Shown: piece by piece, positions 17,941 to 58,404 of the stretch
Layout of the letters: each line of letters opens with the position of its first letter
How positions within the stretch are numbered: position 1 is the first letter of the stretch
From: Methanolobus bombayensis
GTDB taxonomy: Archaea > Halobacteriota > Methanosarcinia > Methanosarcinales > Methanosarcinaceae
Assembly (NCBI RefSeq): GCF_017873415.1
Contig: NZ_JAGGKD010000002.1
Coordinates: 310,001-374,000 of the forward strand
Direction of reading: 5' to 3'
Length of the DNA: 64,000 bases
The notes under the pieces: model-generated
Database searches by the model: none
Told to the model about the DNA's origin: nothing
The model's input: the letters and a program-made list of their open reading frames with translations, nothing else
Made by a program: the position numbers and the translations under genes

Positions 17941-19754
17941 TGAGCACCTCCAGAAAGGCCATTAACTTTTTCAAGAATCTGTTTTATTTCTTCCGGGACA
18001 GCATCTGCTCCTCTATCTTTAATTAACATAATTGCATTAAGTGAAGCAGCAGGCTTTGAAAAGTGTCTTTTGAGGCAAGCATATACCTGATTCCAATATT
18101 CAGAAGTTCCCTCTTCTGCTGTAATTTCAGGATTTGATCTGTCTTCTAGTTTTCTGGCTACATTCAAAGCTTGACCTGGTTTCTCGGGAAAAGTTTCTTT
18201 CATTTCTTCTAATACTTGTTCCCAAGTAGCAGTTGGATAAGTAGTAGTAGTATTATTTATTCCATCTAAATAAGGATCTCCATAACCTGCAACACAAAGA
18301 AGAACATCCATGTTTGACTCAGAAAGTTTTGTAACATATGTAGACTCGTCTCTTCCATTCAACAAATTATTTGCACTTCTAATATACTTATCTCCGGCTT
18401 GATCATTATCTGCCAACAAATGCCAATCAATACCAAGGGAATCTGCCACTTTGATAAATAAACCAGGACCACCTGCTTGACTATATTCGACAATTCGCAG
18501 ACCGCATTGATGTATATCAATTTCTAATATTTGAGCACATTCGGACATTACAGAAACGTCAGTCTCACCCTCAACAAGTAACCATTTTTTAGCAAATAGT
18601 AATTCTCCACGATTTCTTCTAACTTGGTGATTAAATTTCCTCAACTCCTCAGGAGTCAAGCAATCCTTTTGAATTATGTTGCATTCGCATACATTTGACA
18701 TTCTATTCATTCTTCTAAGATTTTCAACAGGCACTTCCGACAGAATGTCACCTGAATGAGTTGCAATAATCTTTTGCCCTGGCAAATTACTTAAAATAGG
18801 CCAAATTGCACGAATTGCATTGGGGTGTAAGTGTGCTTCTGGTTCTTCAATCGCAATTATTGGCTCTGCTAAACGGTTTACATCGACTTTTATTCGGGTT
18901 TTTAAATATGCACTAAAAAGAAGAAGCACGCATAGACTCTGAGTACCTTCTCCATGGTTATAGATAGGAACTTTTGTATTAGTGACGGTAGGAATGTTTA
19001 CATCTGTGTATCGTATTGTTTTATAAAAATCAGCTGGTTTAGGATCTATGCTAACATTATTAGCATCTCCTACAGAAATAAGAGTTGAAAGTTGCTTTAC
19101 TTCGGTAACAACGTCCTGAAATGACAAGTGAGAACCAACAATTTTTTTATTTACTTCTTCTAGTTCAGATTCTAATTCGATTCTGGTATCATCATTTAAG
19201 CTTTTACTTTTTAAAAAAGCTGACCAAAATGTAGCTTGGCTACGAAATTCTTCTTTTGCATCTCTAAGTGCAGAAAGATAATAAAAAGGACGTAGTTTTC
19301 TTATTTCTTTAAGAAAAGACTGCTTACCTACCATTTCATTGTCAGCATCATCCAAAAAACAATAACTTTGTTTTAGTTCCCCTTCTTCATTATCGAACCA
19401 ACCACTTGTACGCAATTTAATCTTTGAGTACTCTTCACCAACAATTACTTCATTTAATGTTTGTATTATTTTCTCATCCCATGGATGTTCCTCTGTTTCC
19501 TCATATGTAAATGTGAGATTTATAGGTAAAAACTGTTCTTTCTTCTTTATCTCATTGTTACGGTAAAAATCATATTCTGAAAAATTGAAAACTCGATCTG
19601 ACTTTATTAAATTCATTCCTATGCGTAGTGCCTCTAGTACAGATGTTTTTCCACTATTGTTTTCCCATATCAATACAGTAATGTCATGATTGAGCTCAAT
19701 CTCTAATGAAGTGATACCACGAAAATTTTCAATCTGGACATTTGTCAAGAACAT
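17937..19754 (-). CDS. OLD-family ATPase with TOPRIM nuclease domain, Gabija GajA-like
   Basis: 605 residues. N-terminal ABC/SMC-like ATPase (NVQIENFRGI; Walker A region IWENNSGKTS; Walker B IAIEEPEAHLHP; ATHSGDIL) followed by a TOPRIM domain with LLVEGETD (catalytic Glu) and LLADNDQAGD (DxD). This is the GajA/OLD layout: a nicking endonuclease regulated by nucleotides. The first Gly of the P-loop (normally G-x-N-N-x-G-K-T) is Trp30 here. The start at 19754 has GGAGGGG just upstream and follows the pglXI stop by 1 bp; the 19769 ATG lies inside pglXI. Inserted between pglXI and brxHII. Confidence 0.8.
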   Translation of the reverse strand: MFLTNVQIENFRGITSLEIELNHDITVLIWENNSGKTSVLEALRIGMNLIKSDRVFNFSEYDFYRNNEIKKKEQFLPINLTFTYEETEEHPWDEKIIQTLNEVIVGEEYSKIKLRTSGWFDNEEGELKQSYCFLDDADNEMVGKQSFLKEIRKLRPFYYLSALRDAKEEFRSQATFWSAFLKSKSLNDDTRIELESELEEVNKKIVGSHLSFQDVVTEVKQLSTLISVGDANNVSIDPKPADFYKTIRYTDVNIPTVTNTKVPIYNHGEGTQSLCVLLLFSAYLKTRIKVDVNRLAEPIIAIEEPEAHLHPNAIRAIWPILSNLPGQKIIATHSGDILSEVPVENLRRMNRMSNVCECNIIQKDCLTPEELRKFNHQVRRNRGELLFAKKWLLVEGETDVSVMSECAQILEIDIHQCGLRIVEYSQAGGPGLFIKVADSLGIDWHLLADNDQAGDKYIRSANNLLNGRDESTYVTKLSESNMDVLLCVAGYGDPYLDGINNTTTTYPTATWEQVLEEMKETFPEKPGQALNVARKLEDRSNPEITAEEGTSEYWNQVYACLKRHFSKPAASLNAIMLIKDRGADAVPEEIKQILEKVNGLSGGAQ

Positions 19755-19755
19755 C

Positions 19756-22551
19756 TCATTCCCCTCCAACCCTTGTCACAGCCTGATCATACCACATCAA
19801 CAACTTCGGATCCTCTTCCAGAACCTTGTTTGGTATCAAATCAGCCACTTTAATTATAGTCGAATAATCCCTCTCCTGCCAAGCTTTCTTAAACCCAGCT
19901 CTCACAGCCTCCATCCTGAATACTTTGAGTTTCTTGGTTGATTGCTTGTACTCATCAAACTCCTTCAACAGCGACTTCTCACGCAGCTTTTCCAAGTCAC
20001 CTGCTTTGTTTGGATCAGGAACATACCATCTATCTTTAGCCTTAGCCATCAATGCAGAATCATCTTTCTGCAGGTTACGCATCTCCGGCCAGTTACTGGA
20101 AAGATAACTATGTATCTGGCTTGGTACATCTCCAACACCATCATATTTCAGGAAATTTTGGTTCAGCAGTTCCCTAAGATCCAGTTGCTGCTCATTCTTG
20201 CTCCAGCCACCAAGTTCCTGCATAAACTGCGGATTGATATCCTGGAATGTCTGTGGCTTTGCCTTGAGGAGCTGGCGTAACCACTGAATTGCAGAAGCCT
20301 CGTCAGAAACGAAAAGTTTTGTCTGGACAAGCTGTCCTGATGTCAGTTTCTTTCGGTCATACTCTGCAGCCTGCTCTGATAAGAAATACATGCCATCTCT
20401 TTCAATGAATCGTTGTCCAAGTCCAATCTGGAATTCTTGACTTGAGATTGGTACAGGATATCCTTTACGAACATAATAAGCTACCATCTGATCGAAAAGA
20501 ATGCGTGGGTCACGTTCTGGTATCAGTTGTAGCATAGAACCCTGATATTTGGTGACTGGCAAGTATTCTAAATGAGTTCTTAAGAAATCCCATACTCCTG
20601 CTTCTGTTTGAGCTTCTTGCTGGAAACGTTCTTCGAAACCACCGTTAGGTTTGTAGGCAGAGATTACTAGGTCTTGTTTCACGGCTGTTGGTGTAGTAAC
20701 TGCGTTGAAGCTACCTTTCTTTTTATCCAATGCTGATACATTGGCAACAACAAACCCTGCATCATTGAGTGCCGTCTGAATGCCATTCCAAACCGATGCA
20801 TTTGTATTAGAAAACTCTATCGTCATCCAGCGGCCTGGTTTAAGTATTCTGTATGCTTCTTTAAAACATTCAGTCATAAGTTTACGATATTCAAGAGCTC
20901 CTTTGCCCTGAACACTATTTTCAATTGCTTCAAGAGAGTTGTCTGTCACGACTTTAAGCCAGTGTTCCCATAATAAACTCAGTTCAGAATAATTGAGGTT
21001 AGAACCAAAAGGTGGATCTAAAAAAATATAATTTATCGAGTTATTTTGCAAACTTACTAATGAAGTACTTGATTGACAAGTACTGACATAATCGTGATTA
21101 CTAAGAGGAAATGAAATTTTTCTTCTTGACGATATTGAACTGAGTATTTGATTGTATATATTCAATTCTTTTATGAGAGATGGAATGTATAAAGTGCCTG
21201 ATAAAGGACCACCTCCAGCTCCCCAGACGCCACTTTGATATGTAAATCGATATAGCTTTGTAATTTGATATGAAACTTTTGTGATTAGTAAATTAAATTT
21301 AGAGGATGACACGTGCTTCTTCATTTTTGCCAAAACCCATAGATTCCGCTTTGAATAGAAATGATGAATGTGCGTAATCCCTATTCTAAGTGGTTCTCCT
21401 GTCTTCGCACCTTGTGGAATTTCAGTTGTTGGAAACCAATATGGAATCTCGCTATTTTCAATCGTTTCAATCAGCCTTAAATCCGATTCATCAAGCATTT
21501 TCTCAAAGCGTTTTCCATCTACTGAATAATTAATCATAACAGGGACTTGTTTTGCTTGTTTGATGGTCTCCCTAATAACAGAATCATACTTAGTGACCCA
21601 TGCTCGTTCCATATTACGTTTGCTAAGTTTTGCTGAACAATGTGGACATGAGAACTGGTCATTGACTTTTCCTGCATCTTTATCTACGGCAACTTCCCAA
21701 AAAACCATCTCATTTGCACATTCAGGACAAACAAAAACATCAGACCAAACTGTATAGTTAATCTTTCCTATCCTACCATCAGTATGCTGAGTCTCGTACA
21801 TCCAGCCGCATTCATCTTCGACTTTTTTCAAGATACTCTTAGCTTCTTTCTCAAATCCCTCCACACTTACAGGTGTGTTGTAATTGTAAGCAATAAAAGT
21901 AGCTGCAGGAGAGAGATCATTAAGGACTGCTCTGCGCACACCAAGCTTTGAGAAAGGTACCCAACGAGTATTTCCATCGTCGCTGGTCTCCTGCTGTAAA
22001 ATGGTTCCGTCAGGTTTGACCTGGTAGCCGAGGGATTCTACTGTCTTGCGGTCACCACACATTTGTGCAGCTACACCAGTCATGCCTGTGCCACAGAAAC
22101 CATCAAAGACGATATCTCCGGGTTCAGTATAGTGAAGAATGTAGCGCATAATGGCTTTGTGTGGAACTTTTGTTGGATATGGATGATACTTGTACACTGG
22201 ATCGTACTTTCCTTCACTTACATCAGACGCAAAAGGTTTCCTATGATGGAGATTGTCTGCTGATTTTTCAGGGTTCTCTGATTCCCATTCATTAATGAAA
22301 TCTGAAATCCAAGGATTTGGACAGGCTGTGTAGTATGGTGGATCGCTTAAATGTAGGATATCTTCATCCGAACCGATAGGGAAGCCTTCTATCTTGCGGA
22401 ATTCAGGATCCTGTAGTTTTTCACGCAGCTTTTGGGTGAAGTAGGTACGGCGTTCTTCTTCATTTACGAAGGCCATGCCAAGGCAGGTGACCTGCTTTGA
22501 AGATTTGCTGCTACCTTCGGAGAAATTATCATATAGAGTGGTATCAGTCAT
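19756..22551 (-). CDS. pglXI: BREX type 3 adenine-specific DNA methyltransferase PglXI
   Basis: 931 residues. SAM-binding motif I FDGFCGTGMTG at residues 149-159; an early DPPYYTACPNP segment (69-80) typical of DUF1156-like methylases; catalytic DPPFGSN near residue 515. A zinc ribbon (CPEC...CPHC) lies between motif I and the catalytic motif. It probably marks host DNA at a non-palindromic site for self/non-self discrimination. It starts 9 bp after brxC. Intact, full length. Confidence 0.88.
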   Translation of the reverse strand: MTDTTLYDNFSEGSSKSSKQVTCLGMAFVNEEERRTYFTQKLREKLQDPEFRKIEGFPIGSDEDILHLSDPPYYTACPNPWISDFINEWESENPEKSADNLHHRKPFASDVSEGKYDPVYKYHPYPTKVPHKAIMRYILHYTEPGDIVFDGFCGTGMTGVAAQMCGDRKTVESLGYQVKPDGTILQQETSDDGNTRWVPFSKLGVRRAVLNDLSPAATFIAYNYNTPVSVEGFEKEAKSILKKVEDECGWMYETQHTDGRIGKINYTVWSDVFVCPECANEMVFWEVAVDKDAGKVNDQFSCPHCSAKLSKRNMERAWVTKYDSVIRETIKQAKQVPVMINYSVDGKRFEKMLDESDLRLIETIENSEIPYWFPTTEIPQGAKTGEPLRIGITHIHHFYSKRNLWVLAKMKKHVSSSKFNLLITKVSYQITKLYRFTYQSGVWGAGGGPLSGTLYIPSLIKELNIYNQILSSISSRRKISFPLSNHDYVSTCQSSTSLVSLQNNSINYIFLDPPFGSNLNYSELSLLWEHWLKVVTDNSLEAIENSVQGKGALEYRKLMTECFKEAYRILKPGRWMTIEFSNTNASVWNGIQTALNDAGFVVANVSALDKKKGSFNAVTTPTAVKQDLVISAYKPNGGFEERFQQEAQTEAGVWDFLRTHLEYLPVTKYQGSMLQLIPERDPRILFDQMVAYYVRKGYPVPISSQEFQIGLGQRFIERDGMYFLSEQAAEYDRKKLTSGQLVQTKLFVSDEASAIQWLRQLLKAKPQTFQDINPQFMQELGGWSKNEQQLDLRELLNQNFLKYDGVGDVPSQIHSYLSSNWPEMRNLQKDDSALMAKAKDRWYVPDPNKAGDLEKLREKSLLKEFDEYKQSTKKLKVFRMEAVRAGFKKAWQERDYSTIIKVADLIPNKVLEEDPKLLMWYDQAVTRVGGE

Positions 22552-22560
22552 TTTTAGTCC

Positions 22561-25500
22561 TCATTCCAGCACAATACGTACCTTATTCGGATCCTTGCCT
22601 TTTGTTAAATTATCCACATAGTCATTGAGCATGCTTTTGAGTTCAGCAGGGCTTACGGGTCCTATTTCGGTCATTTTCTCGATAAACTCTGATTTTTTTA
22701 CTGGAACTTTTTGCAGGCCGGCCAGAACAGTTCTGACTATCTGTATGAATTCATTGTTCAAAGGTTGAGGCAATTCTCCTTTAGAAATAAAATCCTGAAC
22801 AAGCTTCTTGTCATCATCCTGAAGAAGCTGATTCACATTATCCTGTGTCACAGGGTCTTCCAGATTGTTCAGAAGTGTTGTGGTCCATTGCTCAGTTATC
22901 TGGTCCAATTGCAATTCCATTTGATTCAGGAGATTTGATGCCTGTACTTCACCTTCTACTGATGGTTTGAATTGACAATGTGGGCACATCGGACTTGAGA
23001 CAAGTTCCTGCTCTGTAAGATTAAAACAACTCTTCAGTCCTGCCAAACGATTCTGAAAATCAGTCAGTTGCTGCTTTGGCATCAGGTCAATACCTGCCAG
23101 CTTAACTAAATTTTGCAAACGTGTATCATTCATCAATGCTGATTTCTGTTTGTCGTCATTGACACCCAGACGTGACTTGGAGTGTAATGTACTGTAAATA
23201 TTGATGTAATCCTGCTTAAGCTGCTGCAGTTTTGTGTTTATTGTCTGAGATCGATTGGATAATTCAGAGAGCTTTGCCTGTTCTAGATGTATCATGACAT
23301 CATTACGTGTAGCTCTCAAGCGATCCACCCACTCATGCTCGGAAGGAAGTACTGTTTCTGCAGTGGTCAACCATGATACAATGCTACTTTGATTCATTAC
23401 GAACTCACGTAAGGATTCGAGTTCATCCAGTGCTTGAACAGCATTTTTATGAGAAGAGACTTCTTGAGCACTGTAACTGAAATTCTTAAGTTTTCCTGGT
23501 GTTGAATAAACCTGCAATGATTCAAAGAATATTTTTGCATCCTCTATCCCACTTGTCTGGTTGGCCAGTTCAGTACCAATAAGCAAGTTCTTTCCCCAGA
23601 AAGATACACCTTCTTTCAGTACTTGTTGTGCCATAACAAGACGAGTGACAATTTTTCCCACTGCATCCTGAAGGTTCTGCACAGGCTCATCCTTTCCTTG
23701 GGTAAGGAGTAGAGCCATTCCTGGTGACATGTCCAAAAGCTCGAAAACTGCCTTAAGTGCAGGCATGTTCCAGTCTTTTGGCTGTTCAATATGCTTGAAC
23801 CTAATTAGTTCATCCATGGAAGCAGCAGCCAATTGTTGAAGTCCTGTAGCATCGAATTTTTTACCAGGAATAGATAGTACAATATCACCAGAATGTACAA
23901 GTGCAGCAAGAACAACTACTACCCATTCAGGTTCAAGCCTTGAACCTCCTGGATTCATATATTCAAGTCCATTGTCATCGAGAATTATCTCGCTACGGTT
24001 AACAACTTGTCCATGTCCTTTGGATTTGAATGTCTCAAGGATAGAATTCGCATATCTAGAACCATGTGGATCTGTCTTTTCCCCATCCAGCAGTTCCAGA
24101 GCATCCAGAACAGCAACAGCCTGTTTTGTCCGGCTCTGGCCGGCAATAGCCCTCAATGCATCCTGAGCAGCCTGCTGTCTATTGTTTCCTGTAATCATTA
24201 CTGAGAATATTGGATAATCTGGAGCCTGATCTGCAAAGTGTGGTTCCAGACATACACCTGCAATAGTATTGACCATATCGCGGAAGTTAACACTCTCATG
24301 TGAAGTTAAACCAGGCAGACCTTTTATTGACTTTCCTTTTGCCCACTCGGCCATCAATTTAGTTCTTCCCTGATATGTAATCTCAAAAGCATCAGTCATA
24401 TGTTTCTGCAGCCATTGTACCAGTTTCTTCAGGAATTCATTCGCTTTTGACTCATAGGTTGCTTTAGCATGTCCCGAAGATGTAGATGCAAGGTCTAAAG
24501 CTGCAGCATACCCTTTTAAGGCAGAATGGAAATCTTCATCTGTTCCTTTCAGTCGGAAAAATACCTCATCAGAGTTCTTTTCATTTATGTAACGCGTTAA
24601 TTTATTACTGTAATCAAAAACCTGAATAAAGTACAGATAAAAATCCCTCTGAGGCACAGCAGTGGAACGCTCGTCAGGTGAACCGAAGAAGAGATAACCT
24701 GTCCGTGCTGCCCTGTGCTCCCGCCATTCAAGTTCATGTTGCCATATCTTATATCCAGTAACATATGTTGAATCTGTAGATTCCATCACCCGCTTAAGTG
24801 CTTCATAGTAATAGCGGTCAAGTTGTGACTCCTCAAGACTTTCAGTCCTCTTTTCTATTAAAGCATCAAAGTCATCCGTCTTTTTTAGATCAAGGTAAAA
24901 CTGATGGTTTTCTTGGTTGAAGGAAATAAACTGTCCACTTACGGTCTTATGTATTTCACGTAGGACCGTTTCCACATGGGTTTGAAGATCTTTTTCGAGG
25001 TCATCCCCACCCATCTCAGCAATCATAGGTTCAAAAAGTAAAAGACTATCACGCAATTCCTCAGCCGTGGCACCAAGACTTGCATATATGTCGCCTGTTG
25101 TAAGGCGGTGCACAGATAGAGCATGTATCAAACGCAAAGCCATAGGCTTATATTGCGGTCGGGTAAACGCCTGCTGTATACGGGATTCTAATACCTGACT
25201 ACAATCAACCACTGCTCTTATTTCAGGAATTGAACGGAATGATGAATTCTGCTTCAGTGTATCCCAGTAACTGTCAAAAGATATAAGCCCAGGATAATCC
25301 TCAGGGACCTCTTTATCCATAATCGATTTCATTTCTATGGAAAGTGTTTTGAGTACTTCACGTTTCTCTATTATTTTCACACGCTCAAAGGTATCAATAT
25401 AATCTGGGTGTACTGGGAAAAGACGGACAAATTCATCCATCCTTTCATTAAGTCCACCATAGAACTTGGCAAAAGGAGTCAGATATTCACGAATCTGTGC

Positions 25501-26301
25501 CTGCTGATCAGTTGTTTTCTTAAGTAAACGTTCAGAAACGACAAATTTCACATCACTACGTGCAATTACAACCTGCTCAAAACGATCCTTCACTCTGCGA
25601 ATACTGTCAGCTACAAATGCAAAACGTGGACTATCAAATATAGCTTCCTGCACACCAGCCATAAAGCGGAAACGTAGGTCTTTACAAACTTCACCAATTT
25701 CCCTCAAAAAATTAAGATCAAGCATTAGTTCCTGATCTTTACGTGTACGTAAATAGTCTAAGAGTTCATCCACAACCAGGAGCAATCCATGATCTGGGTA
25801 TACTTGGTGAAAAGCTGTCATCATTTCTTCGAAGGCAGTTTTATGGCTGATCACTTGACCTGCTTCAGGAAAAACATAATTAACTTGCAACTCCTCAAGT
25901 TTTTCCTCAAGTATGGCTATCAGAATATCACGTAATGACATGATAGATGAGCCAATTTCGGTACGAATAACTTTGAACCTGCCAGCAATCTGTTTAGCAG
26001 AATCAGAAACATCCCCATGGTTCAATGAATCTAACAAAGAATCGTCTTCAGCAAGGCTGGATATTACTGACATCAAGTGAGACTTACCAGTACCATAATT
26101 ACCAACAACCAATATTCCTTTATTATCCATGGGTTGATCAAATTGTAATTGAGGAATAACAAGATCAGTAAGTCTCTCTGCCATTTCATCTGAAATTACA
26201 TATGTATCAACTAAATGATGAGCTGCATTGGATTTGTCAGCATCTCGTAGCTGAACCACCGATTCAATTGGATCGAATTGGATAAGATCTTCATATTTCA
26301 T
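22561..26301 (-). CDS. brxC: BREX ATPase BrxC (DUF6079)
   Basis: 1246 residues. AAA-type P-loop GNYGTGKS at residues 67-74 and Walker [13 protein letters not shown] near residue 178, followed by long helical regions. A zinc-type pair (CPHC) lies near the C-terminus (about residue 1130). DUF6079/BrxC proteins are the large ATPases of BREX types and assemble on DNA. It starts 13 bp after brxF, so the two are co-translated. Confidence 0.88.
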
Positions 26302-26314
26302 GTTTTACCTACCA

Positions 26315-26797
26315 TTAGTCATTATTGTTGCCGTTTTCCATTTCCACGATTAATATATCGTCTATATCATAGCTTCTATACTCTGCAAGACCGGGTTCAG
26401 CATATATCAGCTTTCCATACTCTAAGTACCCATTCCAGGATGCTATAATGACGTGATTTCTTGAGATTTTTTGCAGGATTTTGAGAGGATCTGTCTTTAA
26501 TTTTCTATCAAAAAGAATCTCAAGGTTGTCCAAAACCTTAATTGAAGGATTTTTACTGATAACATCCATTAAAATATCAGAGATACGAAGAGAACGTTGC
26601 TTTGGTGTCAACTCAATTAATTGTTCCGAAATACTCAAATTAACGTTAATTACTGGTACACCAAGTTCTTCTGCAACATCTTTAAGAACAGCCGTTTTAC
26701 CTGAGTCTGATTTCCCCACTAACAGAACAAGCTTGTGATAAAGATCATCTGCATCTTTTAGATATCGTTTTAACTCGTTTTGAATTGTGTGTACCAT
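26315..26797 (-). CDS. brxF: BREX type 3 P-loop protein BrxF
   Basis: 160 residues with P-loop GKSDSGKT at 28-35 and Walker B-like IKVLDNLEILFD. BrxF is the marker of BREX type 3 and its usual first gene, as here. It opens the eight-gene operon; a 139-bp AT-rich gap with its probable promoter separates it from the upstream helicase gene. Role in BREX is unresolved, presumably ATPase partner of BrxC. Confidence 0.85.
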   Translation of the reverse strand: MVHTIQNELKRYLKDADDLYHKLVLLVGKSDSGKTAVLKDVAEELGVPVINVNLSISEQLIELTPKQRSLRISDILMDVISKNPSIKVLDNLEILFDRKLKTDPLKILQKISRNHVIIASWNGYLEYGKLIYAEPGLAEYRSYDIDDILIVEMENGNNND

Positions 26798-37899: not shown

Positions 37900-39114
37900 C
37901 TATTTTTCCCCAAGAAAGCTTCCCATTTTCTCAGCTATCATTGCCTGAGTTGACGGATTGGACAATAAAAGACTCAAAGCATCAGGAATCTGCTCACTTG
38001 CTTTTTCCATTTCCCGAGCCATCTGCTGATCTAGGACAAGACAGCACTGACTGCAGAATCGATCTTCAGGTCGAAGTACATTACTGCATCTTGGACATTG
38101 TTTTAACGTGATATGACGCTTATCTTCTATCTTGATGCCATACTTCTCATAGATACGGTCATTCATCTCTTTGTCAGTAAAATTGGCATAGACCTTGAAC
38201 ATCCTTGTGGAACCCTTTGACCAGCCAGCACGATGTTTGATCTCCTGCTCATTGAGGTCATCATATATCCAGTGAGTAATGGCCATATGGCGGAAACTAT
38301 GAGGGTTCACACGCTTTTTGATTCCTGCTCTCTTCCCAACATTCTGAATTGTAACTCGAAGGCTTTTATAGCTCATAGGCTCATGCTTTTTATTCAGAGT
38401 GACCCACAAAGGAGCTTCAGGGTCATCTTTGAAAGGATGTACAGCTATCCACTGATTAAGGAAACCTGTTGACCATGTTAGAGGAATACCTTTTGCCGGA
38501 GTTGTCTTATTTGCCATACCGGTCTTGGATAAATAAACCATAGAACCATATTGTGTGAACTCTACATGCTTTATCCTGCAGGAAGCAAGTGCTCCAATTC
38601 GCATTCCGCCATCTGCAAGTACAGCAATTAGTGCTTTATCCCTTGGGTGTCTACAAGCTCCCATTAATTTATCGAACTCTTCCTTTGTCAAAAGGTCCGA
38701 TGGCTGGACAGGTGTATCTAAAGTCTTCAGTTTCAACTTCTGCACCCATTTAGGAGGTTCATCATCAGACATGACTCTGAAGAATTTCTTTGTCACCTTC
38801 TTATAGGTCCGCAATCCTGTCTCCTTAAGTTTACGTTCAACCTGAAGATTCAACATAAGTCTGTTGAAATCATCTTCTTCTAAATCCGTGAGAATTGTAT
38901 CAACACCCATTTCACGCAACCTTTGTGCCATACGAGTGATATAGTTCAGGTATCCTACGATAGTCCCCATTGCAAGATCTTCAACCTGAACTTTAGTTAT
39001 AAATTTCTCTATAACCATCTTATTTTCATCTGAAATATCTGAGTTTTTCAGCCGTTTCATTCCTTGAATGAAACCAGTATTGAACGAATGCACGTCATCT
39101 ACATCACTTGTCAT
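37900..39114 (-). CDS. Tyrosine recombinase (integrase) with C-terminal zinc ribbon
   Basis: 404 residues. N-terminal SAM-like domain; catalytic core with GGMRIGALASC (Arg I), NPHSFRHMAITHW (His-x2-Arg), HRAGWSKGSTRMFKVYA (His/Trp and Tyr nucleophile). The C-terminus carries CPRC...CSQC, a zinc ribbon seen in archaeal integrases. Probably mediates insertion of the element containing the viral remnants to its right. A hairpin at 39155 just upstream might be part of its attachment site. Confidence 0.88.
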   Translation of the reverse strand: MTSDVDDVHSFNTGFIQGMKRLKNSDISDENKMVIEKFITKVQVEDLAMGTIVGYLNYITRMAQRLREMGVDTILTDLEEDDFNRLMLNLQVERKLKETGLRTYKKVTKKFFRVMSDDEPPKWVQKLKLKTLDTPVQPSDLLTKEEFDKLMGACRHPRDKALIAVLADGGMRIGALASCRIKHVEFTQYGSMVYLSKTGMANKTTPAKGIPLTWSTGFLNQWIAVHPFKDDPEAPLWVTLNKKHEPMSYKSLRVTIQNVGKRAGIKKRVNPHSFRHMAITHWIYDDLNEQEIKHRAGWSKGSTRMFKVYANFTDKEMNDRIYEKYGIKIEDKRHITLKQCPRCSNVLRPEDRFCSQCCLVLDQQMAREMEKASEQIPDALSLLLSNPSTQAMIAEKMGSFLGEK

Positions 39115-40140: not shown

Positions 40141-41664
40141 GAACTCCTCCTCCCTGCCAGCCTTCGGCTGTCGAGGAAGGAGCTTCCTACGAGTGTAAGT
40201 CTCATTTCGTAATCATTCTGTTGGGAATGATTCCGATCAACAAACCTGTTTGTCGTAGATTATCAATCATTGATTGATAGCTTGTCCACAAAGCATTATG
40301 TTTGAAATACCTTAAGAGAATGTTCACGCTACTATTCATATCTCTGTCAAGAATATTACCACAATAATCACATTCATATGTTCTGTAATCAAGTGGCATA
40401 TTCTTGATAGCTCCACAAATACAACATTTTTTCGAGGTATAAGATTCATCAATTCTTATTACTCTCTTACCCAAGCTTTCAGCTTTGTAGGTTAAGAATT
40501 GAGCAAATCGTCCTATATGTCCTGAATTATGAGTACCACGATTGGTACTCCTATCTTTTTTATTTGCTTTAGGCTTCTTTGAAGCCATTTGCTTAACATC
40601 AAGTTTACCAATAACGATGGTATTGGCATCCGTATTATCAACTATATTTCTGGTAATTTTATGCTGGTTATCTTTCAACTGATTAGATGATTTCCTTTTC
40701 ATTCTGACTAAATTCTTATTCAGTTGTTTCCATTTCCTACTTTTATTCTTGCAATTATCTCTTCGAGATTGAATTGATTGAATTTTAGGCTCCCAATACT
40801 TGTCTGATCTTTTATTCTTTAATTCCTTGAATTTGCCATCAGAATCAACCATTGTTTGTTTTGAACTACCAATATCAATCGCAAGATAACTATCATTATT
40901 ACTATACTTTTTTTTAGGTACTTCGTAAGTAATTGAGATGTAAAAATCCTTGTCTTTCTGATAAATATTTACCTGATCAATATCAGTAGCTTTACTGAAT
41001 ATTTGTTTTTCAAGCAAAGTAACAGGAAGTTCAAATTTTAGAGATATTCCAGAAGGATGTTTGTGTGAGAAATCAATGTAGATTTTATCTTGTTGCGAAT
41101 ACTTAATTTCTGGTTTATGAATCCTGGTATCCATTGATTTACTTACAAGAACATTATCATTGGAATCAGTTATACTAAATCCGGATTGATTGTAAATCAT
41201 TGTAGTGAAATACTTTTTACCTTTGAATCCAGGAGGTCTTGCGTTAATATCTTTGTTCTTTCTCAAGTTGAAAAAAGACTTATAATCGTTGTCAAGACAT
41301 TTCAAACATCCTTGTAGTACTTTGGAATATACTATATTATAATCAGGAAACCTTTGCTTAATTTCAGGTAATTTATTTTGCTGTTGAATATAACCAATTT
41401 TAGTCTTATTTCGATATGCATCCTGACGTTCTTTCAAACCAAAATTATAAATAAGCCTACATTTCTCCGATAGATTCCATAGAACAGATTCCTGTTCTGG
41501 AGTAGACTGTATTTTAATTGGTAATGTCAATTGCATAAAAAATACCTGTTTTATATTGTGATTTAAGATTATTTAATTGTTAGTGTTTGATACTGTTTTT
41601 TGATTGGTTTATGACGCTTTCATCTCCTACCTGTCGCTACGTTCCGAGGAAGGGGACTTCTCAC
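40141..41664 (-). mobile_element. IS200/IS605-type TnpB-only element
   Basis: A single tnpB gene flanked by related hairpins: right end 40144-40182 (CTCCT...CAGCC-ttc-GGCTG...AGGAG) and left end about 41625-41658 (CCTACCT...AGGAAGG). Both contain CGAGGAAGG. No tnpA is present, as in IS1341-like elements, so it would need a transposase in trans. The right-end hairpin sits where TnpB guide RNAs (omega/re RNA) end. Exact ends uncertain. Confidence 0.55.
40202..41536 (-). CDS. tnpB: TnpB RNA-guided nuclease family protein
   Basis: 444 residues, intact. RuvC-I strand LAIDIGSSKQ (Asp) and RuvC-III ILDRDMNSS (Asp) are present, with a zinc ribbon CCICGAIKN...YECDYC just before. The RuvC-II position, normally (V/I)-E-D/N-L, reads IVIGKLDV, lacking Glu; an acidic alternative (RIDESYTSKKC) follows. 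TnpB proteins cut DNA using a guide RNA made from the element's right end. A loss of activity or relocation of the Glu are both possible. Confidence 0.85.
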   Translation of the reverse strand: MQLTLPIKIQSTPEQESVLWNLSEKCRLIYNFGLKERQDAYRNKTKIGYIQQQNKLPEIKQRFPDYNIVYSKVLQGCLKCLDNDYKSFFNLRKNKDINARPPGFKGKKYFTTMIYNQSGFSITDSNDNVLVSKSMDTRIHKPEIKYSQQDKIYIDFSHKHPSGISLKFELPVTLLEKQIFSKATDIDQVNIYQKDKDFYISITYEVPKKKYSNNDSYLAIDIGSSKQTMVDSDGKFKELKNKRSDKYWEPKIQSIQSRRDNCKNKSRKWKQLNKNLVRMKRKSSNQLKDNQHKITRNIVDNTDANTIVIGKLDVKQMASKKPKANKKDRSTNRGTHNSGHIGRFAQFLTYKAESLGKRVIRIDESYTSKKCCICGAIKNMPLDYRTYECDYCGNILDRDMNSSVNILLRYFKHNALWTSYQSMIDNLRQTGLLIGIIPNRMITK

Positions 41665-48101: not shown

Positions 48102-48878
48102 ATGAGCTTAAAAGAAGAGATCAGAGAAAAAGCCTTTGAAGTGGGATTCCAATTATTTGGTGTTTCTGACATCAATAAACTGGAAGAAGCCGAGTTCCCG
48201 GATGACAGAGGACTCATGAGACCATCTGAAGTCATGCCGGAAGCCAAATCTGCATTTGTTATGGGTCTGGTACTCTGGGATGAAGGACTGAATACTGCTA
48301 TATCATCTGTCAGCACCGGGGATTTTTCTGGCGGAGAAGCTGACTACTACAACATGTATTATGAGGTTACAGAAACCAGGGGATGGCGTCTGGTTTCCTG
48401 GCTAAATGAAAAAGGATACAAGGCAATACCAACTCATTTAGTTCAGGAAAAGATAGCTGCAACTCTTGCAGGACTGGGCTTTATAGGACACAACACTCAG
48501 GTAATAACTCCCGAGTATGGTCCAAGAGTGCGATGGATGACAGTACTAACAGATGCGGAACTTGAACCGGATGAACCTTTCACAAGGGACCTGTGTGCAG
48601 AACAGCTACTCTGTCAGGAAAAATCATTGTGCGTCAAAAGTTGTCCGTATAGTGCACTAATTCCAGGACCATCCCAGGGAGTAGAACCCGGAAAGAAACT
48701 GATCTACGACAAATGCGTTGTTTCACATGAATTCGATAAGGAAATTTCTTCTAAGCATGAGAAACACATACGTCGCATAACGGAGAGAGGATTCATGGAA
48801 TGTACCATCTGTAATCTTGTCTGTCCTTACGGTTACCCGGTCGATGAAAATGTAATTCCTGAAAAAAGAGGCGATTGA
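48102..48878 (+). CDS. QueG-like double 4Fe-4S protein (reductive activator candidate)
   Basis: 258 residues, start at ATG 48102 after GGAGG (an earlier ATG at 48072 would lie inside the palindrome). N-terminal domain like epoxyqueuosine reductase/reductive dehalogenase (IPTHLVQEKIAATLAGLGFIGHNT), C-terminal ferredoxin cysteines CAEQLLCQEKSLCVKSCP and CTICNLVCPYG for two clusters. QueG-type proteins are cobalamin-linked, and RamA, which reactivates corrinoid proteins, is an Fe-S protein, so it might reduce the corrinoid protein at 51196; this is inference. Transcribed with the methyltransferase cluster. Confidence 0.75.
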   Translation: MSLKEEIREKAFEVGFQLFGVSDINKLEEAEFPDDRGLMRPSEVMPEAKSAFVMGLVLWDEGLNTAISSVSTGDFSGGEADYYNMYYEVTETRGWRLVSWLNEKGYKAIPTHLVQEKIAATLAGLGFIGHNTQVITPEYGPRVRWMTVLTDAELEPDEPFTRDLCAEQLLCQEKSLCVKSCPYSALIPGPSQGVEPGKKLIYDKCVVSHEFDKEISSKHEKHIRRITERGFMECTICNLVCPYGYPVDENVIPEKRGD

Positions 48879-49000: not shown

Positions 49001-49786
49001 ATGCCATCTTTATACCTGATATCCTGTCGTATGTTTGAAGATGAACTAGTTAACATATTTGAAAGAGAAGATGAAAATACCCGATTGCTATTGGTAGAAA
49101 ATGAGAACATCGAAGGAATTGAAAATAAATTTACAGAAACATCAGTTGGATACGAAAAAATATCCGTTGAAGATATAACTTCCAGAACAGAATCCACTGA
49201 TGAATTTGTAGTTGTATTGAATATCCTGGAGTTTGCACTGGATGCAGATCCTTCCATTCTCAAGGATAAGGTCTACATGACCATCGAAGAAAAAGGAAAC
49301 TTATTCGATGGAATACTGATCTTTTATGGTCTTTGTGGCAATGTACTTGGAGCGATCGAATCTGATTTTGCCCAGCTAGGCATCCCGGTGAGAATACTGA
49401 AAGACGACGATGGGAACATCGTGGATGATTGTATCTGTGCTGCTTTTGGCAACAGAGGTACATATGTTGAAGCTGTGACCGGTGGAAACAAAGGAGAAGG
49501 CATATACTTCCTGACCCCGATGCAGGCAGCGAACTGGAAAGAAATGCTTGTTCTTGCAAGAATGACCTCGGACCCTGATGATATCGAAATGACAAAAATG
49601 GTATTTGATTATTCCGGTTACAAGAACGTCGGAAAAGTATCTACAGGATTATGTTACGAGAAAAAATTCGACGAGACTGTTGATGAATTTGCATCACTCT
49701 TTGATTTTGAAAAGAAGCTATTTGAAGGGTCAACAAAAGTTGCAGATCAGAATTATGAGTCCATCAAGAAAGAGATTATGAACTAA
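49001..49786 (+). CDS. DUF1638 protein
   Basis: 261 residues. Recognisable by ISCRMFEDEL at the start, GILIFYGLCGNVL in the middle, and YFLTPMQAANWKEM. DUF1638 proteins occur near methanogen methyltransferase genes and contain a conserved Cys/His set; their exact job is unclear. Start has GGAGG about 8 bp upstream. Lies between the QueG-like and Orc1 genes, same direction as the methyltransferase pair. Confidence 0.8.
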   Translation: MPSLYLISCRMFEDELVNIFEREDENTRLLLVENENIEGIENKFTETSVGYEKISVEDITSRTESTDEFVVVLNILEFALDADPSILKDKVYMTIEEKGNLFDGILIFYGLCGNVLGAIESDFAQLGIPVRILKDDDGNIVDDCICAAFGNRGTYVEAVTGGNKGEGIYFLTPMQAANWKEMLVLARMTSDPDDIEMTKMVFDYSGYKNVGKVSTGLCYEKKFDETVDEFASLFDFEKKLFEGSTKVADQNYESIKKEIMN

Positions 49787-49843: not shown

Positions 49844-51043
49844 TTATTTATTTAGTAGCCTGTAATCTGAATAAAGAACTTCTTTCAGCTTATCCATGTT
49901 CTCGTCTATTGAGATCAGGCGAGTTTTTCCAAACCGTCCTTTGCTTCTTACAGGCGCATTTATTATCCCAAGCATATCAAACTCAGCTATGATCCGGGAA
50001 ACACTCGAACGACCAAGAATCCTTAAATCATTACGGCCAGCCAGTTCTTTGTATCTTACTTCCACCTGACCAGTAGTAACTTTGTCATTTAATTCTTCAA
50101 TTAGTTGAACTATGCTTGCGAGCATTAATTTTGATTGGACAGGAAGGCTTTCTATAATCTCAAAAAAGCAATCCTTGTTCAATTCTTCATGAGCAAGCAG
50201 TACATGTTCTTTTGTTATTTTTTCCAGGCTATTCCTTTCAGTGATCTCACCTGCAGTGTCAAGCAATGCCAATGCTTTACGTGCATCACCATCTTCCTGA
50301 GATGCAATTATTGAACATTGTTCAACAGCTTCTTTATCGACAACTCCTTCTTCAAAGGCAAGCTCTATACGATCGTTTAAAATCAGGGAAATTTGCTCAA
50401 TGTTATAAGGTGGAAATACAAAGTCCCTTTTATTAAGGGATGAAATAACCCGGGGATCTAATTTTTCTGAAAAGAAAAGGTCATTTGATATACCTATGAT
50501 CCCGATATGAAGACCATTTTCAATATTCATGTTCTCACTTGCCCTGCTTAAATTGTAAAGAACATTATGGTCCTTGAGCTGGTCAATTTCATCAAAGACC
50601 AGGATTATTGTTGACTGGCTTTTATTGATAACTTTCCAGAGTATGCTGTAATACTCTCCTATGGAAAGACCACTTCTTGGAACATCAGCATCCTGGTCAA
50701 TACTCTTGATTATTTCAAAAATGATGTGACTTGTACTGTTTACTTGTTTGCAGTTCAGGATGATAGTATTTACATTCCTGTTTTCTCTTAATGTGATTTC
50801 ATTTAATATCCTGAATACATATCTAACAACGGCAGTTTTTCCTGCACCGGTTTTTCCATATATGAACGCATTTTTCGGTTCCCCGTTAGAAAGTACAGGT
50901 TTCAATATATTAGCAATATTCCCTATTTGCTGGTCTCTGGCAACAAGAGTTTCAGGTAAGTATTTTGGAGATAGCGCAGATCTATCTCTGAATATTTTCA
51001 TATCGCCTGTTCCGAATATATTGCTTTTCATAAAATCATCCAA
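49844..51043 (-). CDS. Orc1/Cdc6 family replication initiator
   Basis: 399 residues. AAA+ P-loop GKTGAGKT at residues 63-70, Walker B ILVFDEIDQL, sensor I IGISNDLFF, sensor II DGDARKALALL, and a C-terminal winged helix. Typical Orc1/Cdc6 length. It is on the opposite strand to the flanking metabolic genes. Extra Orc1 paralogues commonly belong to integrated plasmids or viruses, consistent with the neighbouring integrase and viral genes. No origin recognition box was seen in the 151-bp gap on its 5' side. Confidence 0.85.
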   Translation of the reverse strand: MDDFMKSNIFGTGDMKIFRDRSALSPKYLPETLVARDQQIGNIANILKPVLSNGEPKNAFIYGKTGAGKTAVVRYVFRILNEITLRENRNVNTIILNCKQVNSTSHIIFEIIKSIDQDADVPRSGLSIGEYYSILWKVINKSQSTIILVFDEIDQLKDHNVLYNLSRASENMNIENGLHIGIIGISNDLFFSEKLDPRVISSLNKRDFVFPPYNIEQISLILNDRIELAFEEGVVDKEAVEQCSIIASQEDGDARKALALLDTAGEITERNSLEKITKEHVLLAHEELNKDCFFEIIESLPVQSKLMLASIVQLIEELNDKVTTGQVEVRYKELAGRNDLRILGRSSVSRIIAEFDMLGIINAPVRSKGRFGKTRLISIDENMDKLKEVLYSDYRLLNK

Positions 51044-51195: not shown

Positions 51196-51843
51196 ATGCC
51201 AGCAAAAGAGGAACTGCTTGTAGAAGCATATGAATCGTTCGTAGAGATCGATGAAAAGAAAGTATTTAACGTCATTGAAAAATGGATTGATAGTGGATAT
51301 GAAATTAAAGACCTTTTAGAAAAGTTCGCAGAAGCTCTTACTGAAATTGGAAGAAGGTTCGAAGAAAAGGAATATTTCCTTGCCCAATTGGTGAATTCAA
51401 CATTGATATTTGATAAAGCATACAAGCTCATTGCTGAAAATATGGCTGAAAAGGCCATCGAAATGAAAGGCAAGGGAACTATTGTAATGGCTACTGTAAG
51501 AAATGACACTCATGATCTGGGAAAGAACATTGCAGCCAGTATGCTCAGGATAGCAGGATTTAACGTTATTGATATCGGAAAAGACAAGGCTGCATCAGAG
51601 ATAATCGATGCAGCAGTTGACAATGAAGCTGACATCATTGCAGTTTCCTCTATGACAAGTACCACAATGAGAAATCTTGAAGAACTGATTGGTCTCCTAG
51701 AAGAAAAAGAGATCAGACAAAATATAAAAGTGATTGTCAGCGGGGCACTTGTTACTCAGGAGTATGCCGACTCCATAGGAGCTGATGCATGTGCCAGAAC
51801 TGCTACAGAAGCAGTAGAGATCGCTGAGACTTTTGTGAGTTGA
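51196..51843 (+). CDS. Methyltransferase corrinoid protein (MtmC/MtbC/MttC family)
   Basis: 215 residues. Helical cap domain (1-90) followed by a B12-binding Rossmann domain: VRNDTHDLGKNI at 102-112 provides the D-x-H-x-x-G cobalt-ligand motif (His106), then SSMTSTTM and IVSGALVT. It should accept a methyl group from the adjacent methyltransferase on cobalt(I). AAGGGG lies upstream. 41 bp before the MtmB-like gene; same operon. Methylamine-family corrinoid proteins cannot be told apart by sequence alone, so the amine is unassigned. Confidence 0.85.
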   Translation: MPAKEELLVEAYESFVEIDEKKVFNVIEKWIDSGYEIKDLLEKFAEALTEIGRRFEEKEYFLAQLVNSTLIFDKAYKLIAENMAEKAIEMKGKGTIVMATVRNDTHDLGKNIAASMLRIAGFNVIDIGKDKAASEIIDAAVDNEADIIAVSSMTSTTMRNLEELIGLLEEKEIRQNIKVIVSGALVTQEYADSIGADACARTATEAVEIAETFVS

Positions 51844-51884
51844 AGAAATGGATGTATTATTATAGTTCCTAAAGGTGAGTTAAG

Positions 51885-53246
51885 ATGGTAGATATCCACA
51901 GCTATTTGGAAAAGGCAATGCAGGGCGAAAAAAGGGATGAACATAAACATGATATGGAAGTTTTCAGGCAATCCCAGAAACTTGCTACTTCCCATGGCAT
52001 AACTTATGATGAGGATGAATTTATCCCTTCTGAGACGGAGTTTGCAGATTCGGTTTTTGAAGCAGCTCTGGATCTTTTACTCAAAGTAGGAGTCTATTGT
52101 AGCGATACAGGCAGAGTTATAAAACTGGATGAAGACGAAATATTAAGTTCAATTAAAGTTCCGAAAACACTGGAAATCGGAAGATTCAATGAAGTTGTAT
52201 CTGTTCCAAACCGATATACTATGGATTCGGAACCCCCTGTTATTATAGGCGGTCCGATGGGTGGTACAGTATCCGAAGAATACTTCCTGGAAATACACCT
52301 AAGTTCCGCATACGAACCCTTAATACAGGGTGTTTATGGCGGCGCAATGGAGACTATGGGTGGCAATTACATCCAAGGAAAAAGTCCCTATGGATTGCTT
52401 GCTACATTAAAGGAAGCTAGACTTGAAAGGTTTTCCACTAAAATAGCTTCAAGAGAAGGACTTGCATTGATGGGACCCTGCACACCAACAAGTTCTCCTT
52501 CTTATATGCTTGTATCATCTGACGAAATGTATTCAAGAAATGATCCCCAGGAAGTTTACCAGTTGAGCGAGATCAAAACTGACTTTGAAACATTCAACAA
52601 GTCAATATTCCATCTTGCACATGGGAACAAATTCTTTTCAAGCCAATCTGCAGTATTAGGTGGAAATAGCATCGGATCGGCAGAAGGACTTGCTATAGTA
52701 GATGTTGCAGAGACAATACAGTCTAAAATGATCACCGGAGCAAATTTCCATGTGTCAGGATCAGTTCATGCAAGTACAAATTCATCTTCAGCAAAAGAGG
52801 TCATCTGGGCTTCCAATATGGCTTCAATTGCCATTTCCCGAAATATGCAACACTATACAGCCAGACACTACTTTAACAGGGCCGGATGTTGTACTGATAT
52901 GATGTTCTATGAAACTGCTGCCCAGGCAATTGGCGACACTGTAAGTGGGAGGGATATTCTTATAGGTCCTGTTGGTGGTCGTGGAGCATTGATAGACCAA
53001 TCATCAGGTCTCGAATCCAGATTTATGGGTGAAATTGCTCATATGGCAACGCATCTTACAATGGAAGATGCAAATGCTGTCGTGAGCAAGATCTATTCAA
53101 AATATAAAGACAGATTGTTAGATTCTCCAAAAGGTAAACCCTTCAATGAGTGCTATACATTAAAGTCGGAATACAGCATGATTCCGAATGAGGATTACTT
53201 GAATCTTTACAAGAAGATTTTTTCGGAGATAGAAGGTTATTGCTAA
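51885..53246 (+). CDS. MtmB-family methyltransferase lacking pyrrolysine (Met196 at Pyl position)
   Basis: 453 residues, aligned by eye over its length to monomethylamine methyltransferase MtmB: GGPMGGTVSEEYFLEIHLS, KSPYGLLATLKEARL, and SGRDILIGPVGGRGALIDQSSGLESRFMGEIA match MtmB segments. MtmB's active-site segment GMGV-Pyl-GPETS corresponds to GLAL-Met196-GPCTP, encoded by ATG 52470-52472, not TAG. Pyrrolysine is the residue proposed to activate the amine, so this protein probably uses another methylated substrate or works differently. AGGTGA precedes the start. Co-transcribed with the corrinoid protein. Non-Pyl members are well known in the related MttB family (for example MtgB) but I know fewer in MtmB. 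Confidence 0.85.
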   Translation: MVDIHSYLEKAMQGEKRDEHKHDMEVFRQSQKLATSHGITYDEDEFIPSETEFADSVFEAALDLLLKVGVYCSDTGRVIKLDEDEILSSIKVPKTLEIGRFNEVVSVPNRYTMDSEPPVIIGGPMGGTVSEEYFLEIHLSSAYEPLIQGVYGGAMETMGGNYIQGKSPYGLLATLKEARLERFSTKIASREGLALMGPCTPTSSPSYMLVSSDEMYSRNDPQEVYQLSEIKTDFETFNKSIFHLAHGNKFFSSQSAVLGGNSIGSAEGLAIVDVAETIQSKMITGANFHVSGSVHASTNSSSAKEVIWASNMASIAISRNMQHYTARHYFNRAGCCTDMMFYETAAQAIGDTVSGRDILIGPVGGRGALIDQSSGLESRFMGEIAHMATHLTMEDANAVVSKIYSKYKDRLLDSPKGKPFNECYTLKSEYSMIPNEDYLNLYKKIFSEIEGYC

Positions 53247-56529: not shown

Positions 56530-57129
56530 TTATTTATTGAAGTCTCTAATTACTTCAATTATTCTGTAAACCTGTGTTGATGGATTACTTTCCGTACTAT
56601 TTAGATCAGTTCCGTTATCAAGGTGAAGTTTTTCCAGTTTTTTAGCGTTTTTCACTGCTGTATCAGTTAGAGGTTCAAGAGTTTGAAAGTAATCTCTGCT
56701 CTTACTGTAATCTGTAATCTGTCTTTTTAAAAGTTCTATCAAACCTTCGTTTTGAAGTGATGCGTCTGTATAGCTAAAATGAAGAAGGAACCAGAGTTCA
56801 AAGGAGGGGTTTGAGAAGCACATATTGATGGATCTTCCGGCATACCTGTATGCTTTTGAGATATTGTCATCTGTGTTCTCGTCGCAATCAAAGACGCACC
56901 AGATGGAATCACCACCGTTGATGTCCAGATCTTGCACCTTTTTTTTAGCAAATTTAACAATGCTTCCGACATCTTTACGGCTTGATGGAATAGGAATGAC
57001 ATCGACGTTGTTCTGTGGGGTTCTGTAATTTTCAAAGTACATTGGTTCGGTCTTTTCACCTTCACAGATTATGATCATTTTATTCCTTGTAGGTCTTTGA
57101 CCACGTTTTCTTCGGCTGTAGTCTCCCAT
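56530..57129 (-). CDS. rloB: RloB-family TOPRIM protein
   Basis: 199 residues. MIIICEGEKTEPMYFENY gives the TOPRIM Glu and WCVFDCDENTDD the Asp-x-Asp. RloB homologues occur with an AAA ATPase in restriction and defence islands, like the DUF4435 TOPRIM of PARIS. It starts 12 bp after the ATPase gene, so they form an operon. Effector nuclease role is inferred. Confidence 0.8.
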   Translation of the reverse strand: MGDYSRRKRGQRPTRNKMIIICEGEKTEPMYFENYRTPQNNVDVIPIPSSRKDVGSIVKFAKKKVQDLDINGGDSIWCVFDCDENTDDNISKAYRYAGRSINMCFSNPSFELWFLLHFSYTDASLQNEGLIELLKRQITDYSKSRDYFQTLEPLTDTAVKNAKKLEKLHLDNGTDLNSTESNPSTQVYRIIEVIRDFNK

Positions 57130-57141
57130 GTCAAAATCCCC

Positions 57142-58404
57142 TCAGGATGAGATGAATGGCAGTGCTCCGTATCTTCCCATCAGGTATCCTTTCAGGATGT
57201 TCTGATCTTTGCGAACCTGGAATTCCAGAAGTGAATAAAGATCCGTATTCCCTGCATCAGCATCTTTTTCAGTGAACCATATCTGATCCCTTCTGAATAT
57301 CTCATCATTGAGCAGGTTGGTGTTATGGGTCGTTATTATTAACTGGGCATTGTTCTTATTGTAACTCTTGTCATGGAAGAGTTTGACCAGGTGTTCACTA
57401 AGCATTGGATGCAGCTTTAGTTCCAGCTCATCTACAAACAGGACCTGCCCTTTATTTAGTGCATTCAGCCATGGTCCTATTAGAGTGAAGAATCTTCTTG
57501 TACCATCGGATTCCTCAGTGTTGAAATCAAATGAGATGCTGTGTTCCTTGCCATCTTTATCTTTTACAAGGTGGAATGTGTTGATGTCTATTTTTTGCAA
57601 CTTCCCATTAGCTTTATCAAAGCCTCGTGGCAGATGGTTCGTTATTTCAACCGGAAGTTCAGTAGGATCTATGTCTTCTATACTTGCAATAATATCCTTT
57701 AGACCAAGGTCTGCTCTTTCAAGTGATCTCAGAATGGCTTTTTTCGAGTCGTCATCCTGATTGAGCATTTGTATTGTATATTCACCCTGCTCTGATAATG
57801 TCCTTGCACCAATTATTCTCAGGTCTTCCCTGAACCATTTGAAGGCTTCCAGGGTCTTAGCGTAATTCTGCTGTGCGGAGTTGGAGAGATAAAGGACATT
57901 ACTCAGAGTTCTCTTTGAGATATCGTTCTGAACTCTTTTATCAATCGTGAATTTGAATTCAGTTGTGTTTCTTCTTTCAAAAACGAGTGCTTCCCTGTTG
58001 TTCGGGTAATAATAAAGTTCTTCATCGATTATCTTTGTCCTGTCATATGATACAGCATACCTGTACCTGACATTGTTCTTGATGAAAAACACACTGAACC
58101 TGCTGGGCTTAGACATACATTCCGGTGTCAGCTTGAACGGCTCGAATGGAAGCAGATCTCCATCCTGATTCTTGACCGACGTCATCACCAGATTCTGCAG
58201 GTTGAACATTGCTAAAAGAACATTGCTCTTTCCGGATGCATTAGCCCCATAAACGACAGCACTTTTCACCAGCCTGTCATTTTTCTTCAGGGCATCCGGC
58301 TCGATCAGATTCTCCTCAAGCGCCCTGTCTGATGATGCCAGTAAACTAAAAGTGATCTCATCCTTAATTGAGCGAAAGTTCTCAGCTTTGAATTCAATTA
58401 ACAT
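57142..58404 (-). CDS. rloA: AAA15-type ATPase, RloA-like
   Basis: 420 residues with an SMC-like head: FKAENFRSIKDEI, P-loop VVYGANASGKSNVL, signature LFVDELELKLHP, and a D-loop THNTNLLN. Pairs with the RloB TOPRIM gene as in RloAB and PARIS-like AAA15-TOPRIM modules, in which the ATPase detects phage proteins and releases the effector. The start is chosen at the N-terminal beta strand MLIEFKAENFRS. Confidence 0.82.
   Translation of the reverse strand: MLIEFKAENFRSIKDEITFSLLASSDRALEENLIEPDALKKNDRLVKSAVVYGANASGKSNVLLAMFNLQNLVMTSVKNQDGDLLPFEPFKLTPECMSKPSRFSVFFIKNNVRYRYAVSYDRTKIIDEELYYYPNNREALVFERRNTTEFKFTIDKRVQNDISKRTLSNVLYLSNSAQQNYAKTLEAFKWFREDLRIIGARTLSEQGEYTIQMLNQDDDSKKAILRSLERADLGLKDIIASIEDIDPTELPVEITNHLPRGFDKANGKLQKIDINTFHLVKDKDGKEHSISFDFNTEESDGTRRFFTLIGPWLNALNKGQVLFVDELELKLHPMLSEHLVKLFHDKSYNKNNAQLIITTHNTNLLNDEIFRRDQIWFTEKDADAGNTDLYSLLEFQVRKDQNILKGYLMGRYGALPFISS

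Follow-up and report, generated by a model that had tools for sequence, protein, structure and literature searches.

The window analysed here, 64,000 nucleotides of Methanolobus bombayensis DNA, encodes a relative of the monomethylamine methyltransferase MtmB in which pyrrolysine (Pyl) is replaced by an ordinary methionine. This raises the question of what such an enzyme demethylates and which proteins serve it. Judged from its sequence, the protein, here called MtxB, is rather probably a corrinoid methyltransferase that feeds coenzyme M, with a quaternary amine as its likeliest substrate. The features of the locus that bear on this reading are the following, in the order of their coordinates:

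about 48102..48878, plus strand: QueG/reductive-dehalogenase-like 4Fe-4S protein (profile match; a neighbour by position only)
49001..49786, plus strand: DUF1638 protein, probable corrinoid reactivation factor (profile match, co-occurrence)
49844..51043, minus strand: Cdc6/Orc1-like AAA ATPase with Walker A motif GKTGAGKT (profile match)
51196..51843, plus strand: mtxC, cognate-type corrinoid protein of 215 residues with D104-x-H106-x-x-G109 (PF02310 and PF02607; MtqC branch in the tree)
51873..51878, plus strand: AGGTGA, presumed ribosome-binding site 6 bases upstream of the mtxB start (read in the sequence)
51885..53246, plus strand: mtxB, Pyl-free MtmB-family methyltransferase of 453 residues (profile match, phmmer alignment, tree, predicted model)
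52470..52472, plus strand: ATG codon of Met196, which faces Pyl202 of MtmB (alignment and codon reading)

The mtxB reading frame is intact without internal stops, and both mtxB and mtxC are preceded by good ribosome-binding sites. In the profile search MtxB matched PF05369 (MtmB) with 514.5 bits against a cut-off of 25 (E 3e-154), covering residues 2-451 of 453 and profile positions 1-447 of 450. Its AlphaFold2 model (pLDDT 87.5) superposes on the MtmB structure 1nth with a Z of 54.5 and an rmsd of 1.7 Å over 444 residues, so that a chance match to the family is excluded. The next family by fold is MttB/MtgB, with a Z of about 22 and 10% identity to MtxB. In the whole-length phmmer alignment to the crystallised MtmB of Methanosarcina barkeri, Met196 of MtxB (ALMGPC) stands opposite the TAG-encoded residue X202 (GVXGPE) of 1l2q, and its codon is ATG, which rules out a misread amber codon. 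The full-length likeness to MtmB and the ordinary methionine at the Pyl position, both noted in the preliminary description, are thus borne out.

Of the five MtmB-family genes in the host genome (3.12 Mb in 35 contigs), two contain a single in-frame TAG and three contain none. The two TAG-containing mtmB genes imply that the pyrrolysine system is in use in this organism and that the Pyl-free genes are additional to it. We searched 112 Methanosarcinaceae genomes for relatives of MtxB and found a sharp identity gap: about fifty Pyl-free genes are 54-67% identical to MtxB, and all others at most 34%. The high-identity clade that holds MtxB, with 48 sequences, is called W in the following. It is confined to Methanosarcinaceae, as no near relative of MtxB was found elsewhere among 393 Halobacteriota genomes. 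Within the family W occurs in most Methanolobus and Methanococcoides, including 9 of 11 Methanococcoides genomes, and in half of the sampled Methanohalophilus. In a 71-sequence maximum-likelihood tree, drawn from Halobacteriota only and with long branches outside W, the W proteins, the Pyl enzymes and the MtqB type described below form three separate clades (100/100 each). MtxB is the deepest sequence of W, the remainder of which is supported at 94/89. The tree also covers what could have undone the interest of Met196, namely a recent point mutation or a gene that groups outside MtmB. MtxB falls within the MtmB family; 38 of the 48 W sequences have methionine at the Pyl site and the rest Leu, Phe, Val or Ile, which rules out a recent loss of Pyl by point mutation and establishes Met196 as conserved within a clade. 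MtxB is 63-67% identical to the W proteins of Methanococcoides, and its closest relatives, in the same range, carry Met and not Pyl. About 140 positions are near-invariant in W, which points to strong selection on the protein. MtxB is the most deviant sequence at these positions, differing at 11 of the 140 (Y328H among them); its methyl donor may therefore differ from that of its cousins, which may be poor guides to its substrate. Another deep group of Pyl-free relatives of MtmB was seen in Methanosarcina and others (L111, L112, L146, L212, L213, L214 6853-8208 and L215), roughly 23-34% identical to the W, MtqB and Pyl groups and bearing Asp, Val or Asn among the pocket residues.

The active site of MtxB appears to have been rebuilt for something other than monomethylamine, in line with the other substrate that the preliminary description had proposed. 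Glu259, Gln333 and Tyr335, which we take to be active-site residues of MtmB (1nth), are all kept in 11 of 11 Pyl sequences and correspond to S253, H328 and F330 in MtxB. Across MtxB and W, Pyl202 is replaced by Met, Glu259 by Ser or Gly, Gln333 by His or Tyr and Tyr335 by Phe or Trp. The pair at the Gln333 and Tyr335 sites is always Gln and Tyr in the Pyl enzymes, Tyr and Phe in three MtqB-type proteins, mostly Tyr and Trp in W, and His and Phe in MtxB. Compared with Pyl-containing MtmB (1nth, 1l2q), MtxB therefore shares the fold, the length and the glutamate at the Glu229 site (E223), whereas it is only 30-32% identical, belongs to a clade of its own and has replaced Pyl202, Glu205, Glu259, Gln333 and Tyr335.

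The preliminary description regarded a Pyl-free MtmB set as new, a view that is now out of date. In March 2026 Kashyap and colleagues described MtqB, a homologue of MtmB without Pyl from Methanococcoides methylutens Q3c; it demethylates tetramethylammonium (37 nmol/min/mg), choline (42) and, weakly, monomethylamine (11), and they presented this as the first demonstrated function of a Pyl-free MtmB (PMC13044021). MtqB has a conserved Met and Cys in its active site, and its gene lies directly downstream of a corrinoid gene (PMC13044021). Two main kinds of Pyl-free MtmB are found in Methanococcoides genomes, W and a presumed MtqB type (L143, L144, L145), the latter assigned by gene order, mutual identity and motif. 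The three MtqB-type genes lie directly downstream of a corrinoid gene, L143 and L144 are 77% identical, and at the Glu259 site, where both W and the MtqB type have lost the glutamate, they carry a CMCP motif that probably represents the Met and Cys of the MtqB paper.

MtxC, encoded 41 bp upstream of mtxB, matches PF02607 and PF02310 above cut-off and contains the cobalt-ligand motif DxHxxG as D104THDLG109. With the profile for methyltransferase-cognate corrinoid proteins (TIGR02370) it scored 144.8 bits, below the cut-off of 215.3, and an MtqC-type protein also fell narrowly below it (204.0). In the corrinoid tree MtxC sits on the MtqC branch (17 sequences, 100/99), apart from MtmC, MtbC and MttC, and it is 44-46% identical to the MtqC group versus 24-35% to the other three. 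A corrinoid protein beside the methyltransferase, as originally described, is thus present, and the two proteins would form a working pair. The direct junction of such a gene with a W methyltransferase exists only in the window: in Methanococcoides the W gene has no adjoining corrinoid gene, two genomes carry an orphan window-type corrinoid gene 41-47 kb away from the W gene, and four have W and lack the window-type corrinoid protein. In Methanohalophilus the window-type corrinoid protein, the window-type DUF1638 protein and the W methyltransferase occur in exactly the same four of eight genomes, and W is missing from the other four.

The corrinoid, DUF1638 and QueG-like genes that had been grouped with mtxB are all present, but the four named genes do not form one uninterrupted run, because the Cdc6/Orc1-like gene on the minus strand, which the preliminary description does not mention, intervenes between DUF1638 and mtxC. 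Phaeobacter needs DUF1638, together with a RamA-like protein, to make methionine by the corrinoid-dependent route (PMC5764234), and a study on glycine betaine names it in the same role (PMC12478193). A sequence search for solved relatives of the DUF1638 protein found none. Within Methanococcoides and Methanohalophilus, DUF1638 relatives of at least 62% identity and the window-type corrinoid protein are found in exactly the same genomes, five and four respectively (Fisher p 0.002 and 0.014, without correction for shared ancestry), and in three Methanohalophilus genomes close relatives directly adjoin mtxC. These patterns support the earlier suggestion that the DUF1638 protein is a probable partner of the methyl-transfer module. 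It is not exclusive to MtxC, since DUF1638 is common in Methanolobus genomes without the window-type corrinoid protein. The QueG-like protein fared worse. Homologues of 83-84% identity occur in two genomes (G016 and G017) that have no W enzyme at all, and its association is not significant with W proteins of at least 61% identity (Fisher p 0.18) while it reaches p 0.005 with the window-type corrinoid protein, neither value being corrected for shared ancestry. A role as dedicated corrinoid activator is unsupported, as its phyletic pattern does not follow the methyltransferase.

The Cdc6/Orc1-like gene has relatives of 45-50% identity in 14 genomes, the window's own included, all of which have a W enzyme of at least 61% (p 3e-15, uncorrected for ancestry); one broken copy aside, the remaining Orc1-type proteins reach at most 43%. 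It usually lies directly downstream of the W methyltransferase and is followed by a hydantoinase-A-like gene (Methanococcoides; L076, L077, L147-L150). In the window it diverges from mtxCB, so that two different arrangements exist across genomes. In a Methanohalobium genome (G029) one relative lies at the very beginning of the second contig, a position that would suit a plasmid initiator. No convincing origin-like repeats were found near the gene in the window. It may be the relic of a replicon that carried the methyltransferase gene, or a regulator. The hydantoinase-A-like gene that borders it in Methanococcoides may be a specific partner, though its family is multicopy, often with 5 to 13 members in a genome. 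In one genome of the Methanohalophilus group (G033, L200 6058-10825) a hydantoinase-A-like gene stands on either side of the DUF1638 gene, which hints at a possible service of this ASKHA-like family to corrinoid proteins.

A phage-type integrase (37900-39114) and a protein like TnpB/OrfB (40202-41536), both encoded in the window, suggest that the methyltransferase cluster belongs to a variable island. At 10409-26797 there is a BREX-like defence set with BrxA, PglZ, BrxHI, PglXI, BrxC and BrxF as best PADLOC models, with a Gabija-like GajB/GajA pair (16081-19769) nested between its helicase and PglX genes. An RloB-like protein beside an AAA_21 ATPase forms an RloAB-like pair at 56530-58404. Spread on viruses was considered and dropped, as a search for close relatives of MtxB among viral contigs returned none.

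Two W paralogues of the host genome and their subclades hint at substrate and end point. One (C2:72757-74109; L073 5758-7128) has Ile at the Pyl site and, like its Methanolobus and Methanohalophilus cousins in a total of eight loci, is divergent from a gene for a BCCT betaine/choline/carnitine transporter, which scored 603.5 bits with NF047988, just below the cut-off of 650, and 495.9 with TIGR00842, above 407.55. The pocket of this subclade differs, with Arg or His at the Tyr335 site and in some members Lys at the Glu229 site. The other (C6:115283-116629; L075 8260-9633) has Leu at the Pyl site, is convergent with a Pyl mtmB and divergent from an MtbA gene; its subclade lies beside Pyl genes in Methanolobus, head to head with the MtbA equivalog (665.5 bits, cut-off 600). 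Together with the pocket likeness to MtqB and the position of MtxC on the MtqC branch, these linkages favour a quaternary amine as donor and coenzyme M as end point. Still, BCCT transporters may import osmolytes, which counts against the linkage as a hint to the substrate. In the mechanism that we propose, the TIM barrel of MtxB would bind a methyl donor that needs no activation by Pyl, most likely a quaternary ammonium compound. Met196 would fill the Pyl site, and the catalytic Gln and Tyr of MtmB would be exchanged for His or Tyr and Phe or Trp, with Ser or Gly for Glu259. The methyl group would pass to cob(I)alamin on MtxC, from which MtbA would transfer it to coenzyme M for methanogenesis, and the DUF1638 protein would re-reduce inactive Co(II) together with a RamA-type protein, of which the host genome encodes four. 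In its logic this resembles MtgB and other Pyl-free members of the MttB family (COG5598), also Pyl-free relatives of a Pyl enzyme that demethylate quaternary amines onto a corrinoid protein, although they belong to a different family by fold and identity.

An unlikely alternative is that MtxB does the work of MtqB on tetramethylammonium and choline, in a system joined from a W enzyme and an MtqC-type corrinoid protein. MtxB and MtqB share PF05369 and the absence of Pyl, the corrinoid protein is of the MtqC branch, the order mtxC-mtxB is that of mtqCB, and the aromatic changes at the Gln333 and Tyr335 sites match. Yet MtxB is only 28-29% identical to the MtqB-type proteins, has SSQS where all three of them conserve CMC(P), and carries Met at the Pyl site where they have Val, Gln or Ile; moreover, three Methanococcoides genomes contain both MtqB-type and W genes, which speaks against identical roles. 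Orthology in the strict sense is ruled out by the separate clades and by the motif. The donor might also be another methylated compound that is independent of Pyl, either a sulfonium such as DMSP or a tertiary amine such as N,N-dimethylethanolamine. Such a choice would suit a pocket unlike even that of the other W proteins (C199, S253, H328, F330), and Methanococcoides vulcani, by the title of a cited paper a user of betaine, choline and dimethylethanolamine, has a W gene. We nevertheless consider it distinctly improbable, as both the genomic hint from the BCCT genes beside the cousins and the biochemical precedent within the family exist for quaternary amines only.

Most improbable of all is an MtxB that transfers no methyl group and binds MtxC or the Pyl enzymes as a non-catalytic or regulatory paralogue. 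The loss of Pyl, Glu259, Gln333 and Tyr335, the many genomes (most of them) without a corrinoid gene beside W, and the Cdc6-like ATPase as the conserved neighbour of W in Methanococcoides would all agree with it. However, E223 and the fold are retained, the near-invariant positions of W speak for strong selection, and the MtqB-type proteins lack the same residues although MtqB is active (PMC13044021).

Overall, W is a real and conserved Pyl-free clade of the MtmB family, and MtxB is an atypical, deeply branching member accompanied by a corrinoid gene of its own, in a kind of system that is already known. It is quite possible, though we would not call it probable, that W represents a third functional class of the family besides those for monomethylamine (Pyl) and for tetramethylammonium and choline (MtqB), with a substrate new to methanogenesis, and that the lineage of the window, with its deep position, altered pocket and adjoining corrinoid gene, has specialised further. 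Among the many Pyl-free homologues of MtmB, just one has a known function. The genera that carry W live in oxygen-free and often saline sediments, in which methane formation is driven by methylated amines, and naming the W substrate would give the carbon cycle a further source of methane. For expression, the window offers a compact mtxC-mtxB pair, unlike the orphan genes of other genomes. The substrate would also show whether the loss of Pyl in the MtmB fold repeatedly yields quaternary-amine demethylation.
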